A stretch of DNA of 64,000 bases, from the NCBI GenBank assembly GCA_001314865.1, contig LJZR01000019.1, positions 1-64,000 of the forward strand, in the 5' to 3' direction. A program made the position numbers and the translations under genes. Below, piece by piece: positions 14,124 to 17,293 of the stretch. This stretch comes from Phormidesmis priestleyi Ana. Lineage in GTDB: Bacteria; Cyanobacteriota; Cyanobacteriia; Phormidesmidales; Phormidesmidaceae. Position 1 is the stretch's first letter. The number at the start of each line of letters is the position of its first letter. Under the pieces are notes generated by a model, which was not told where the DNA came from, did no database searches, and saw only the letters and a program-made list of their open reading frames with translations.

Positions 14124-16709
14124 ATGGATGCTAACGCGCGAACTCGCTGGCTACAAACCCACACCCGATTTCGCGACCTACCCCCCGATTTAACGCAGAC
14201 CCTTGCCGTACACCTCACCGAAGTGCCCTTCGCCCCCAATCGCCGCCTCATTTTAGAAGACACTCCGCCCGACGCACTCTACATTCTCCACAGCGGCCAG
14301 TTAGAGAGTTATCGCACTCGCCGCACCAGCGCCGCCAAAGTCACCATCCTCGACCCTGGCGAAATCATCCATTTGCCAGAACTCCTGATCGATACAGCTA
14401 CCACTCAAACCCTTGTATCACTCACAGAATGCACCCTCTGGAAGCTAGAAAAAGAAACCTTTCAACAGCTTAGCGAAACCATTCCAAACCTCAAACAACA
14501 ACTTGCCCAGCTGATTACCACTACGCTAGAAGACACCTCTGACCAACTGCTGTACGAACAAGAGCGACAGCAGGCCCTGCGTCCCCACCTAATTACTCGG
14601 GTTAAACGAGGCGTCGTCGGCAGTAGTCGCTACGCTATTCGCCTGCGTAAAGATATTCGTGACGCCACTCGCCAAGCCAGCCCAAAAAATCCAGAAAATC
14701 AAGAAAATCCAAAAAGCCGTAAGCCGCCTATTTTAATCTTTGGTGAACCCGGCCTGGGCAAAGACAATCTGGCCGCACTTATTCACTTTGGATCTCGCAA
14801 CAAGGCCCAGCCGATGATCCAGCTAAACTGCGAAAAGCTGCGAGCCCAAGATCTATTCGGCAAAGGAGAAAGCCAACCAGGGCTCTTAGAATGGCTCGCC
14901 GATGGCACGCTGTTATTAAACAACATTCAAGACCTAGACGAATCACTCAAAGCACCCGTAGCCCAGCTAATAAATACCGGTGTGTATCGACCGGTCACCC
15001 GCGAAGGCGAAGCACCGTTGCCTACCCGCCAATCTGCCGCCTGGATTTTGATGGTGTCTGAAAAAGTCATTCCTGAATTTACAAAATGCACCGTTCAACA
15101 AATTAAAGTGCCGCCCTTACGCATCCGCAAAGCCGACATTGAAGCCCAAGTGACCTACTTTGTTCAGCTCTCTTGTCGCAGTCGTGGCCTGGTCAAACGT
15201 CAGCTCACCCCCGAAGCCCTCCGCCGACTACAAAGCTACGACTTTCCGGGCAACCTCACCGAGCTAGAAAGCATGGTAGAGCGTGCCATTAGCCAGTCAG
15301 AGGGCAGCCCCGTCCTCACTGAAGAAGTCTTTTGGGCTGTAGAAAAACAGAACCGCCGGTTCCGCTTAAATTTGCTTCAGGGTTACCCGCAATTGCGCAA
15401 ATTTTTACTCAGTCCCTGGTGGCCCACTCGCATTAACTATGGCTTTACGCTGTGGTTTTACCCGATTGTGGTGGCCATTTTAATGTGGGGGCCGCAAACC
15501 CGTGAAAACAACTTTGCGCTTAACTTTTTTTGGGCCTGGTGGTGGCCGCTCATTCTCATTGGCTTTCCCTTTGTCGGTCGCCTGTGGTGCGCGGTTTGCC
15601 CATTTATGATCTACGGCGAAGTAGCCCAGTTTTTATCGCTTAAGCTATGGCCTCGAAAGCTGCAAGGCTGGCCCCGCCAGTGGGCTGAGCGCTGGGGAGG
15701 GTGGATTTTGTACGCTGGCTTTGCGCTGATTCTACTCTGGGAAGAGCTGTGGAATTTAGAAAACACCGCCTATCTCTCTGGCTGGCTGCTGCTGATTATC
15801 ACCGCTGGCGCAGTGGTGTGTTCTGTACTGTTCGAACGGCGGTTTTGGTGCCGCTATCTATGCCCTATTGGCGGGATGAATGGCCTTTTTGCCAAGCTTT
15901 CAATCATTGAACTGCGCGCGCAGCAAGGAATTTGCTCAGCAGCTTGCGACACTTACCACTGCTACAAAGGCGGCCCTGCTGAGGGCGAAGGCCAAGCGAC
16001 AGGCGGCTGCCCAGTATATTCTCATCCGGCCCAGCTCACCGATAATCGCGACTGTGTGCTGTGCATGACCTGTCTTAAAGCCTGTCCTCACAAGTCTGTT
16101 GAACTCAATCTACGACCGCCTGGGATAGAACTTTGGACGAGCCATCGCAGTACCGGCTATGAGGTGGCTTTGTTGTTGTTGCTGTTGGGCGCGGTGTTTT
16201 TGCATCGGTTGCCGCAGCTGACGACTTGGGTGTTGGGCGATGCTCAGCTGTTAGAGAATTTTGGGGGGCATGCGATCGCCGCCACCATTGCCCTGTTTTT
16301 ACCGGGTGCGATCGCTCTGCTCCTCGGCCAGCTTCGCAACCCCTTCCAAGGCACCGGATCTCGACGAAACCGTTTAGAACTCATCTATGGCTACCTGCCC
16401 CTAGTTCTATTTGCCAGCCTCGCCCATTACCTATTACTGGGTCTCTCAGAAGCAGGGCAAATCGTCCCTGTTTTTTGGGCCACTCTCGGCCTGCCTATTC
16501 ATGCAGCCAGTCCTGCTTGGCAAATTAGCCCTATCGTCATTGCTCATCCTGCCATCATTGCCTTTTTACAAGGCATCAGCCTAATTGCAGGCGCTCTGTT
16601 GAGCATTGTTTTAACCCAAAAAATTGGCCGTCAGTCTTGGCGCAAGCACATTCCCCAGCATAGTCTCACGATTGCCCTTACCGTATGTCTGTGGCAACTG
16701 ATTATTTAA
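14124..16709 (+). CDS. Fusion: cNMP-binding domain, degenerate NtrC-like AAA+ domain, membrane polyferredoxin
   Basis: An 861-residue protein in three parts. Residues 15-130 form a CRP-like cyclic-nucleotide fold (LYILHSGQLE, ILDPGEI). Residues 160-405 resemble the sigma-54 activator AAA+ core: Walker A GEPGLGKDN (about 207-215) is kept, but the GAFTGA loop is absent, the Walker B acidic pair is Asn-Asn (GTLLLNNI, about 261-268), and sensor II reads PGNLTELES where NVRELEN is usual. Residues 440-861 are membrane helices with NapH/NosR-like features: WCAVCP, WCRYLCPIGG, a Cys cluster near 604-629 and a 4Fe-4S motif CVLCMTCLKACP (644-654). It probably senses a ligand or redox state and tunes electron transfer; that is inference. 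Cyanobacteria lack sigma-54. Confidence 0.88.
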   Translation: MDANARTRWLQTHTRFRDLPPDLTQTLAVHLTEVPFAPNRRLILEDTPPDALYILHSGQLESYRTRRTSAAKVTILDPGEIIHLPELLIDTATTQTLVSLTECTLWKLEKETFQQLSETIPNLKQQLAQLITTTLEDTSDQLLYEQERQQALRPHLITRVKRGVVGSSRYAIRLRKDIRDATRQASPKNPENQENPKSRKPPILIFGEPGLGKDNLAALIHFGSRNKAQPMIQLNCEKLRAQDLFGKGESQPGLLEWLADGTLLLNNIQDLDESLKAPVAQLINTGVYRPVTREGEAPLPTRQSAAWILMVSEKVIPEFTKCTVQQIKVPPLRIRKADIEAQVTYFVQLSCRSRGLVKRQLTPEALRRLQSYDFPGNLTELESMVERAISQSEGSPVLTEEVFWAVEKQNRRFRLNLLQGYPQLRKFLLSPWWPTRINYGFTLWFYPIVVAILMWGPQTRENNFALNFFWAWWWPLILIGFPFVGRLWCAVCPFMIYGEVAQFLSLKLWPRKLQGWPRQWAERWGGWILYAGFALILLWEELWNLENTAYLSGWLLLIITAGAVVCSVLFERRFWCRYLCPIGGMNGLFAKLSIIELRAQQGICSAACDTYHCYKGGPAEGEGQATGGCPVYSHPAQLTDNRDCVLCMTCLKACPHKSVELNLRPPGIELWTSHRSTGYEVALLLLLLGAVFLHRLPQLTTWVLGDAQLLENFGGHAIAATIALFLPGAIALLLGQLRNPFQGTGSRRNRLELIYGYLPLVLFASLAHYLLLGLSEAGQIVPVFWATLGLPIHAASPAWQISPIVIAHPAIIAFLQGISLIAGALLSIVLTQKIGRQSWRKHIPQHSLTIALTVCLWQLII

Positions 16710-16771
16710 ATTTACCTCCGCCGTCATACTCTCCTCAAAAAAACAAAACATCCACAACAAATACAATCGCC

Positions 16772-17293
16772 ATGACACAACAAAACTTATCTACAAAAAA
16801 CTGGCCCCAAAAAGACTGGCCCCAAAAAGACTCATCTAAAAAAGCTCAGTACTGGGCTTTTTGCTGCGCCACTATTTTCCTCATTCCTGCGAGCCTCCTA
16901 CTCACAAGCTGCGCAGGCACACCCGACGAAGCCACCCCTGAGTCTGAGCTTTCCCCACCGACCCAAACCCCCGCAGCCCCACCCCCACTCCCCGAAGGCA
17001 TGTCACCTATTCCCGATACCGAACTTCCTGAAGCGGTCAAGGCCAGCGTCTTTCAAGACATTGCCACCAGCCAGAATATTCCGGTCGAATCACTCCAAGT
17101 CGTAGGGGCTCGAAGAGAATCTTGGCCTGATGGTTGCTTAGGTCTCGGTGGCCCAGATGAAATTTGCACCTTTGCTATTGTCGAAGGCTGGGAAGTTACC
17201 GTGAGTCGCGATAATGATATATGGGTATATCGCACCGACAGCGATGGAGTCAATATCCGATCGGTCGATGTCCCAGCAACAGAGTCTTTCTAA
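16772..17293 (+). CDS. Lipoprotein with proline-rich linker and C-terminal conserved domain
   Basis: The chosen ATG 16772 (MTQQNLSTKNW) lies within the longer frame that overlaps the fusion gene from 16685. A hydrophobic segment ends in the lipobox LLLTSC, so the protein is likely lipid-anchored. A Pro/Thr/Glu-rich linker (about 25 residues) follows, then a domain with AVKASVFQDIATSQ, VVGARRESWPDGCLGLGGPDEICT and EGWEVTVSRDNDIWVYRTD. I recall similar cyanobacterial secreted domains with the WPDGCLGL-type motif and two Cys, of unknown function. The short repeat NWPQKDWPQKD before the signal segment is encoded by a 15-bp duplication. It is probably co-transcribed with the fusion gene. Confidence 0.75.
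   Translation: MTQQNLSTKNWPQKDWPQKDSSKKAQYWAFCCATIFLIPASLLLTSCAGTPDEATPESELSPPTQTPAAPPPLPEGMSPIPDTELPEAVKASVFQDIATSQNIPVESLQVVGARRESWPDGCLGLGGPDEICTFAIVEGWEVTVSRDNDIWVYRTDSDGVNIRSVDVPATESF

Follow-up and report, generated by a model that had tools for sequence, protein, structure and literature searches.

Architecture of the locus

The 64,000-nucleotide stretch of Phormidesmis priestleyi Ana analysed here (contig LJZR01000019.1, positions 1 to 64,000; hereafter the window) contains a fusion gene at 14124-16709 on the plus strand. It is a single unbroken open reading frame (ORF) with an ATG start and encodes 861 amino acids, in which a CRP-type domain and an NtrC-type AAA+ core are followed by a membrane module of the NapH/NosR class with iron–sulfur (Fe-S) cysteine motifs. 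A preliminary description of this DNA had recognised the three parts in one chain, and they are borne out by Pfam matches above the curated cut-offs: cNMP_binding (PF00027, residues 34-118, 52.8 bits against a cut-off of 27.5), Sigma54_activat (198-299), AAA_lid_14 (333-406) and Fer4_5 (PF12801, 33.6 bits against 22, in two stretches, the best at 553-592). The NCBIfam profile napH_ (TIGR02163) aligns over residues 483-661 with 57.7 bits, far below the family cut-off of 213.05, which sets the protein apart from NapH proper. A tentative reading of the fusion is that a quinone-linked Fe-S membrane protein of the NapH/NosR class carries an AAA+ head that binds nucleotide without hydrolysing it and so tunes electron transfer.

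Conservation is given over an alignment of 77 family members in three sequence groups. Group A includes the window gene (39 rows), group B includes a paralogue in the same genome (27 rows), and group C is found in small genomes, including one Cyanobium; 11 rows are labelled C, one of which (L123) was so labelled by sampling, clusters with B in both trees described below and is counted as B in the marker test, so that the tree-based C rows number 10. The alignment holds 55 of the 69 loci from a genome scan (38 A, 17 B or C) and 22 others: the window, its own-genome paralogue (L002), 18 further loci and two plasmid loci. Fourteen shortened or broken loci were left out (L006, L024, L033, L035, L043, L045-L049, L067, L068, L071 and L072). 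The features of the window gene are as follows.

14124..16709, plus strand: whole gene, 861 amino acids plus stop; CRP-type domain, NtrC-type AAA+, NapH-class membrane module (ORF, domain matches, own-genome match)
14223..14477, plus strand: CRP/cNMP-binding-type domain (34-118); phosphate-binding Arg missing (Pfam PF00027; SthK alignment and family check)
14715..15341, plus strand: NtrC-type AAA+ core and lid, residues 198-406 (Pfam PF00158 and PF25601; predicted model against NtrC1 3m0e)
14742..14765, plus strand: Walker A GEPGLGKD (207-214); Lys213 kept in 77/77
14904..14924, plus strand: degenerate Walker B GTLLLNN (261-267); catalytic Glu missing in 77/77
15252..15266, plus strand: sensor II region NLTEL (377-381); Arg position varies across the family
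15396..16706, plus strand: membrane module (425-861) with nine long helices in the structure models; loop charges place the Fe-S part on the cytosolic side
15588..15602, plus strand: CxxCP motif (489-493); both Cys and the Pro in 77/77
15849..15866, plus strand: CxxxCP motif (576-581); both Cys and the Pro in 77/77
15933..16088, plus strand: presumed two-cluster Fe-S region (604-655), with C604, C608, C613 and C629 and the canonical C644, C647, C650 and C654; all eight Cys in 77/77
16155..16706, plus strand: C-terminal helices of the membrane half (678-861), past the NapH-like part; E680, Y755, P759, E776 and Q816 in 77/77; a stand-alone relative from Deinococcus aligns here too

The Pfam search of the protein gave 12 matches up to an E-value of 1, all of them listed, and these include no helix-turn-helix (HTH) family, no flavin mononucleotide (FMN)-binding domain of the NosR/RdhC type and no sulfur-reductase domain. 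The linker from the AAA+ lid to the first membrane helix is 26-27 residues long in the 77 members. Since the linker is this short and no HTH family matches, there is no HTH, in agreement with the original claim that a DNA-binding domain is missing. A DNA-binding regulator acting by itself is thus ruled out.

The AAA+ head

The model of the AAA+ part matches the AAA+ domain of NtrC1 (3m0e) with a template modelling score of 0.82 by target length. Among solved structures the best sequence match is VpsR of Vibrio cholerae. Its Walker B, GTLLLND, comes close to the GTLLLNN of the window protein; NtrC1 has GTLFLDE. VpsR, TyrR, DhaR and the NtrC of R. capsulatus likewise have an NtrC-type AAA+ without GAFTGA. 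These four are DNA-binding regulators, whereas the window protein has no HTH and carries a membrane Fe-S half instead.

The preliminary description held that Walker A is present and that the GAFTGA loop, the acidic pair of Walker B and the sensor II Arg have been lost. Walker A is indeed intact, with the P-loop Lys213 retained in 77/77 members. GAFTGA occurs in 0/77, with merely 9-16 residues between LFG and GTL. The Walker B claim is exact for the window protein, and the catalytic Glu is found in 0/77; the Asp is missing in group A (0/39) and is kept in 16/27 members of group B and 9/11 of group C. None of the 77 members thus combines an intact Walker B with GAFTGA, or has either the Glu or GAFTGA. 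The sensor II position of the window protein is the T of NLTEL and not an Arg, as described. As the Arg is kept in 14/39, 2/27 and 9/11 members of groups A, B and C, respectively, its loss is, judging from the alignment, not a family trait. The segment that should hold the arginine finger, from the sensor-I-like position to P331, spans 16-20 residues, a measure of length alone. The AAA+ part is present in all 77 members and, by its residue pattern and the selection data given below, is altered yet maintained rather than decaying. It may bind nucleotide and not hydrolyse it, both being putative.

The sigma-54 DNA-binding family (PF04552) has 0 matches in the P. priestleyi genome (98.83% complete; the control gives a signal in 4/14 genomes), as the description had supposed. 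This agrees with a survey reporting that sigma-54 and its activators are missing from all 29 cyanobacteria sequenced at the time (PMC3162934). With no sigma-54 match and no GAFTGA in any member, a role as sigma-54 activator is ruled out.

A somewhat unlikely alternative retains a regulatory output: the Fe-S module would read the redox state of quinone or sulfide, and the AAA+/CRP head would signal to RNA polymerase or to a transcription-factor partner, with no DNA binding of its own. The head is derived from transcription regulators, and bacterial enhancer-binding proteins without GAFTGA are reported still to act on sigma-70 promoters (PMC10274813, PMC3162934). However, the protein has no HTH and no recognised output domain. 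The selection and neighbourhood data given below also bear on this alternative. A DNA-binding role, which would have contradicted the preliminary description, was not found for the protein in the open literature, as far as titles and abstract beginnings go.

The CRP-type domain

In receptor domains for cyclic AMP (cAMP) and cyclic GMP (cGMP), the Arg of an R-[ST]-A motif holds the cyclic phosphate. The CRP-type domain of the window protein aligns with the domains of SthK and protein kinase A, and this Arg is missing. Across the family, Arg followed by Ser, Thr or Ala is found in the phosphate-site stretch of 2/60 members, both in group B. Because the phosphate-binding Arg is missing, cAMP or cGMP sensing by the domain is unlikely, going by these alignments; a different ligand is possible. 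The domain is present in 33/39 members of group A, 27/27 of group B and 0/11 rows labelled C. Given its loss in 6/39 group-A members and all 11 C-labelled rows, it is, by this pattern, dispensable. A cyclic-nucleotide-sensing role of the domain is not supported.

The Synechocystis protein slr0593 is presumably a member of the same family. One table row names it a 'cAMP binding membrane protein' (PMC3516471), a role that is not supported for the window protein. It is not mentioned in a LexA paper.

The membrane iron–sulfur module

The membrane half contains WCAVCP (CxxCP), WCRYLCP (CxxxCP) and a canonical CxxCxxCxxxCP motif at 644-655. Twelve Cys (489, 492, 576, 580, 604, 608, 613, 629, 644, 647, 650 and 654) are kept in 77/77 members. 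The NapH-class assignment and the 4Fe-4S motif of the preliminary description stand; of the two cysteine-proline motifs, one is CxxCP and not CxxxCP. The other presumed cluster motif has the unusual spacing C-x3-C-x4-C-x15-C. Two [4Fe-4S] clusters are presumed from these motifs.

Nine long helices are predicted in this half by the structure models; the model of the protein has a mean predicted local distance difference test score (pLDDT) of 85.8 and a predicted template modelling score (pTM) of 0.60. Mean Lys/Arg counts over the family are at least 2.6 in the presumed cytosolic loops and at most 1.2 in the outer loops, with loop limits set by hand from the model and the last loop widened to 830-842. 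On account of this charge distribution the Fe-S region is placed on the cytosolic side, together with the AAA+ head.

NapH, NosR and RdhC (PceC) share a common membrane module with cysteine-proline motifs, and two CX3CP motifs belong to its definition; NapH is proposed to be the quinol-oxidising part (PMC5928378). The window protein resembles them in its Fer4_5 stretches and cysteine-proline motifs at membrane helices and, in the case of NapH and NosR, in two Fe-S cysteine motifs. It differs in that one of the two cysteine-proline motifs is CxxCP (each is kept in 77/77), in the odd first cluster motif and in the extra C-terminal helices. It also has no FMN domain and carries the AAA+ and CRP-type head. 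In flavinylation gene clusters, NapH-like proteins are described as modular, with several partners, most of which have an FMN domain; flavinylation is underrepresented in cyanobacteria (PMC8238504).

The membrane module also exists without the head, as a stand-alone '4Fe-4S binding protein' in Deinococcus ficus and in haloarchaea. The relatives from D. ficus and Natrinema (452 amino acids each, with neither AAA+ nor CRP-type head) align over the membrane module including the C-terminal helices, with 31% and 27% identity, respectively. The Natrinema copy (L076, 5761-7119) keeps the membrane motifs and is missing several Fe-S Cys, as if a cluster had been lost. On the D. ficus plasmid pDFI1 (L073, 7042-9323), the stand-alone gene overlaps an upstream gene for a His-rich protein without Pfam or NCBIfam match, and a DUF305 gene is near; the two overlapping genes are possibly a metal-linked redox pair.

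CcoG/FixG proteins have a comparable Fe-S membrane part. A further alternative is that the fusion belongs with that class and acts in assembly or metal handling, the degenerate AAA+ serving only as a scaffold; the overlap with the His-rich gene and the nearby DUF305 in Deinococcus would suit it. The conservation of the P-loop exceeds what a pure scaffold needs. Cytochrome bd is found at 5/25 group-B loci, and copper or oxidase-maturation genes near the family were not searched for. On balance this alternative is highly doubtful.

Distribution and selection

A genome scan with six short peptide patterns, which reaches close relatives only, found 69 loci, every one with a cyanobacterial record title. 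Within the phylum, 104/386 genomes match the protein at E-values up to 1e-40, a few of the matches being partial. In 76 of the 104, including the P. priestleyi genome, the best match is below 1e-230 (at least 53% identity, the range of group A), a tally from the match table rather than a placement in a tree. Of 72,556 plasmid records searched in six frames, 1925 gave some match, which for many of the listed records lies in the AAA+ part alone; two matches cover at least 80% of the protein, and both are cyanobacterial. Within the reach of these searches the fusion looks cyanobacterial. It is apparently unstudied, as no paper on it was found among the titles and abstract beginnings of the open PMC literature.

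The own-genome paralogue of group B (L002, contig C119) has 41% identity to the window protein. Quick trees were built from 36 rows for the membrane half and 34 for the AAA+ half, rather than all 77. In both, B with L123 and C are strongly separated; group A falls to one side of a branch whose support is weak (60 and 21), and a warning of long branches meeting applies. The trees fit a single fusion followed by divergence and are no proof of it.

Family members are under purifying selection. In 24 close pairs (synonymous divergence, dS, below 1.2; few lineages, the window gene not among them), the ratio of non-synonymous to synonymous change (dN/dS) is 0.049-0.224 for the AAA+ part and 0.004-0.078 for the membrane/Fe-S part. 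For the CRP-type part, computable in 19/24 pairs, it is 0.040-0.397, the top value coming from a pair with a mere remnant of the domain. That the strongest constraint lies on the Fe-S/membrane half speaks against a sensor whose output is the head. The matches in 104/386 genomes and the purifying selection in relatives rule out a chance or mis-called ORF. Several copies (L035, L045, L048, L049 and G116:C175) read as broken or, in the case of G116, as carrying one in-frame stop; these could be assembly errors or pseudogenes.

Gene neighbourhoods of the three groups

Group B is linked to sulfide and low oxygen by gene order. At least one of 16 markers lies within 8 kb at 23/25 group-B loci, 0/42 group-A loci and 2/10 group-C loci, and at least three lie at 16/25 group-B loci. 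Loci with less than 6 kb of flank were left out (6/48 A, 5/30 B and 0/10 C). The markers were drawn from group-B neighbourhoods, so that the contrast with group A is partly built in; the fairer figure is 9/11, for group-B loci not used for marker choice, the PsbA marker alone having come from one of those 11 (L075). Counts among the 25 loci include the following: cysteine synthase 17, rhodaneses of two types 9 and 6, metallo-beta-lactamase-fold proteins 8 (candidates for glyoxalase II or persulfide dioxygenase), ArsR regulators 7, SQR-like proteins 6 and 1 (below the NCBIfam cut-off), cytochrome bd, extra Rieske, D1 and TauE exporter 5 each, HemN 4 and heme oxygenase 3.

Group B is also operon-like with cysteine synthase: at 17/19 loci where that gene was found, it overlaps the group-B gene or starts on the same strand no more than 400 bp after it. 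At the other two it lies 534 bp downstream and about 10 kb away. The figure counts cysteine-synthase-bearing loci alone; group B has 30 in all, several with little downstream sequence. On contig C119 of P. priestleyi a cysteine-synthase-type gene follows the paralogue by 19 bp. The same-strand cluster there (L132, 291-8390) further comprises a methyltransferase, two rhodaneses, an inward-rectifier-type K+ channel, a PetC-type Rieske protein and DUF302.

Cyanobacterial sqr genes are described near arsR-like and special psbA genes (PMC5061849), and the main text of that paper contains none of the terms 'cysteine synthase', '4Fe-4S' and 'cyclic nucleotide'. Two group-B copies are on plasmids, one typed as conjugative and the other as non-mobilizable, by which sulfide tolerance might pass from one cyanobacterium to another. 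These genes, in Aulosira laxa plasmid2 (L074) and Pseudanabaena galeata pPg_03 (L075), lie alongside D1 (psbA) and Rieske genes. Their database names, 'nitrogen assimilation regulatory protein' and 'cyclic nucleotide-binding domain-containing protein', give no hint of the Fe-S membrane half. One group-C copy (L117) directly follows a HemN-like gene, and ArsR- and PsbA-like genes are close by; in some lineages the low-oxygen link may thus extend to group C.

The position of cysteine synthase invites another explanation, which is distinctly improbable: group-B proteins, and perhaps the whole family, would be reductases supplying it with sulfide, electrons passing through the Fe-S clusters and the Cys of CxxCP/CxxxCP to a persulfide or other sulfur compound. 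The tight downstream placement favours it, as do the nearby rhodanese, SQR-like and metallo-beta-lactamase-fold genes. However, group A keeps the same core with no sulfur marker at any of its 42 loci, and none of the 12 Pfam matches is a sulfur-reductase domain. Quinol is, moreover, a weak donor for many sulfur reductions.

Group A is the widespread version without a fixed gene partner. Its neighbour sets are small and lineage-limited, and none is common across lineages. No conserved motif was found in its 64 upstream regions. NtcA sites number 5 (mean after shuffling 3.5), strict NtcA sites 1 (0.6) and Fur-like sites 10 (11.6), and HLR1, CRP, FNR and LexA sites are found in 0 of the 64. The absence of a shared target neighbour counts against the sensor that would signal to transcription; the ArsR-type regulators at 7/25 group-B loci count in its favour. 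In the window, a downstream ORF at 16685-17293 shares its first 25 bases with the last ones of the family gene. It has no Pfam or NCBIfam match and, by eye, a lipoprotein-like LTSCAG stretch.

A proposed mechanism

The reading given at the outset, in which a quinone-linked Fe-S protein has a head that binds nucleotide without hydrolysing it, is suggested by two sets of precedents, the NapH/NosR/RdhC proteins and the activators without GAFTGA. One of the latter, the NtrC of R. capsulatus, is reported to require ATP binding rather than hydrolysis (PMC10274813). An integral-membrane protein with two presumed [4Fe-4S] clusters would exchange electrons with the quinone pool, both the quinone contact and the electron acceptor being presumptive. 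Its cytosolic head, from a sigma-54-activator AAA+, would bind nucleotide and be unable to hydrolyse it, and the CRP-type domain that often precedes it would no longer read cAMP. Nucleotide at the P-loop, reflecting energy charge, would determine which conformation or oligomeric state the head adopts; since head and clusters share one side of the membrane, electron transfer would thereby be tuned. Group B is part of sulfide/low-oxygen gene islands, and group A is the widespread, partnerless version. Nucleotide gating of electron flow, as put forward in the preliminary description, is a plausible hypothesis that the homologues do not contradict.

A number of points weigh against the quinone-linked, nucleotide-tuned protein proposed here. 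A profile search for a solved relative of the membrane half gave five short ferredoxin-motif matches alone (best E 0.16), and none of the 135 PDB matches in the fold search is below E 0.001. Short ferredoxin motifs apart, neither search thus offers a structure on which to map a quinone site. The protein also lacks the FMN domain of NosR/RdhC, and periplasmic partners were not searched for. Model confidence is low in the Fe-S stretch 600-645, which together with the pTM of 0.60 makes the domain arrangement uncertain. As regards nucleotide binding, group A has lost the Walker B Asp as well as the Glu. Of the regulators without GAFTGA, VpsR does not need ATP, and Caulobacter NtrC needs residues of both Walker A and Walker B (PMC10274813). 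The role of group A rests on homology, since it has neither a marker nor a shared neighbour, and 2/25 group-B loci are also without any marker. A search for one SQR type in the P. priestleyi genome gave 0 matches and had no positive control, so that the empty result shows nothing.

It is tempting to speculate further that the AAA+ part forms a hydrolysis-dead ring that senses ATP/ADP and acts as a redox valve in the photosynthetic membrane, switching exchange between plastoquinone and cytosolic carriers on or off via the two Fe-S clusters. A duplicate, also found on plasmids, would then have been recruited to redirect electrons under conditions (sulfide, or missing oxygen) that favour alternative D1, Rieske and oxidase subunits. 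This extended version is improbable.

Implications

A NapH-class module is known in itself; new are its regulatory head, the split between groups A and B and the link of group B to sulfide genes. If the tentative reading is correct, the ATPase of a transcription activator would have been converted to the control of a membrane redox protein. Database names such as 'cAMP binding' and 'nitrogen assimilation regulatory protein', which are misleading, would be corrected, and an apparently unstudied, operon-linked member would be added to the sulfide/anoxygenic islands. For cyanobacteria, the fusion would offer a direct route by which energy charge acts on the quinone pool.

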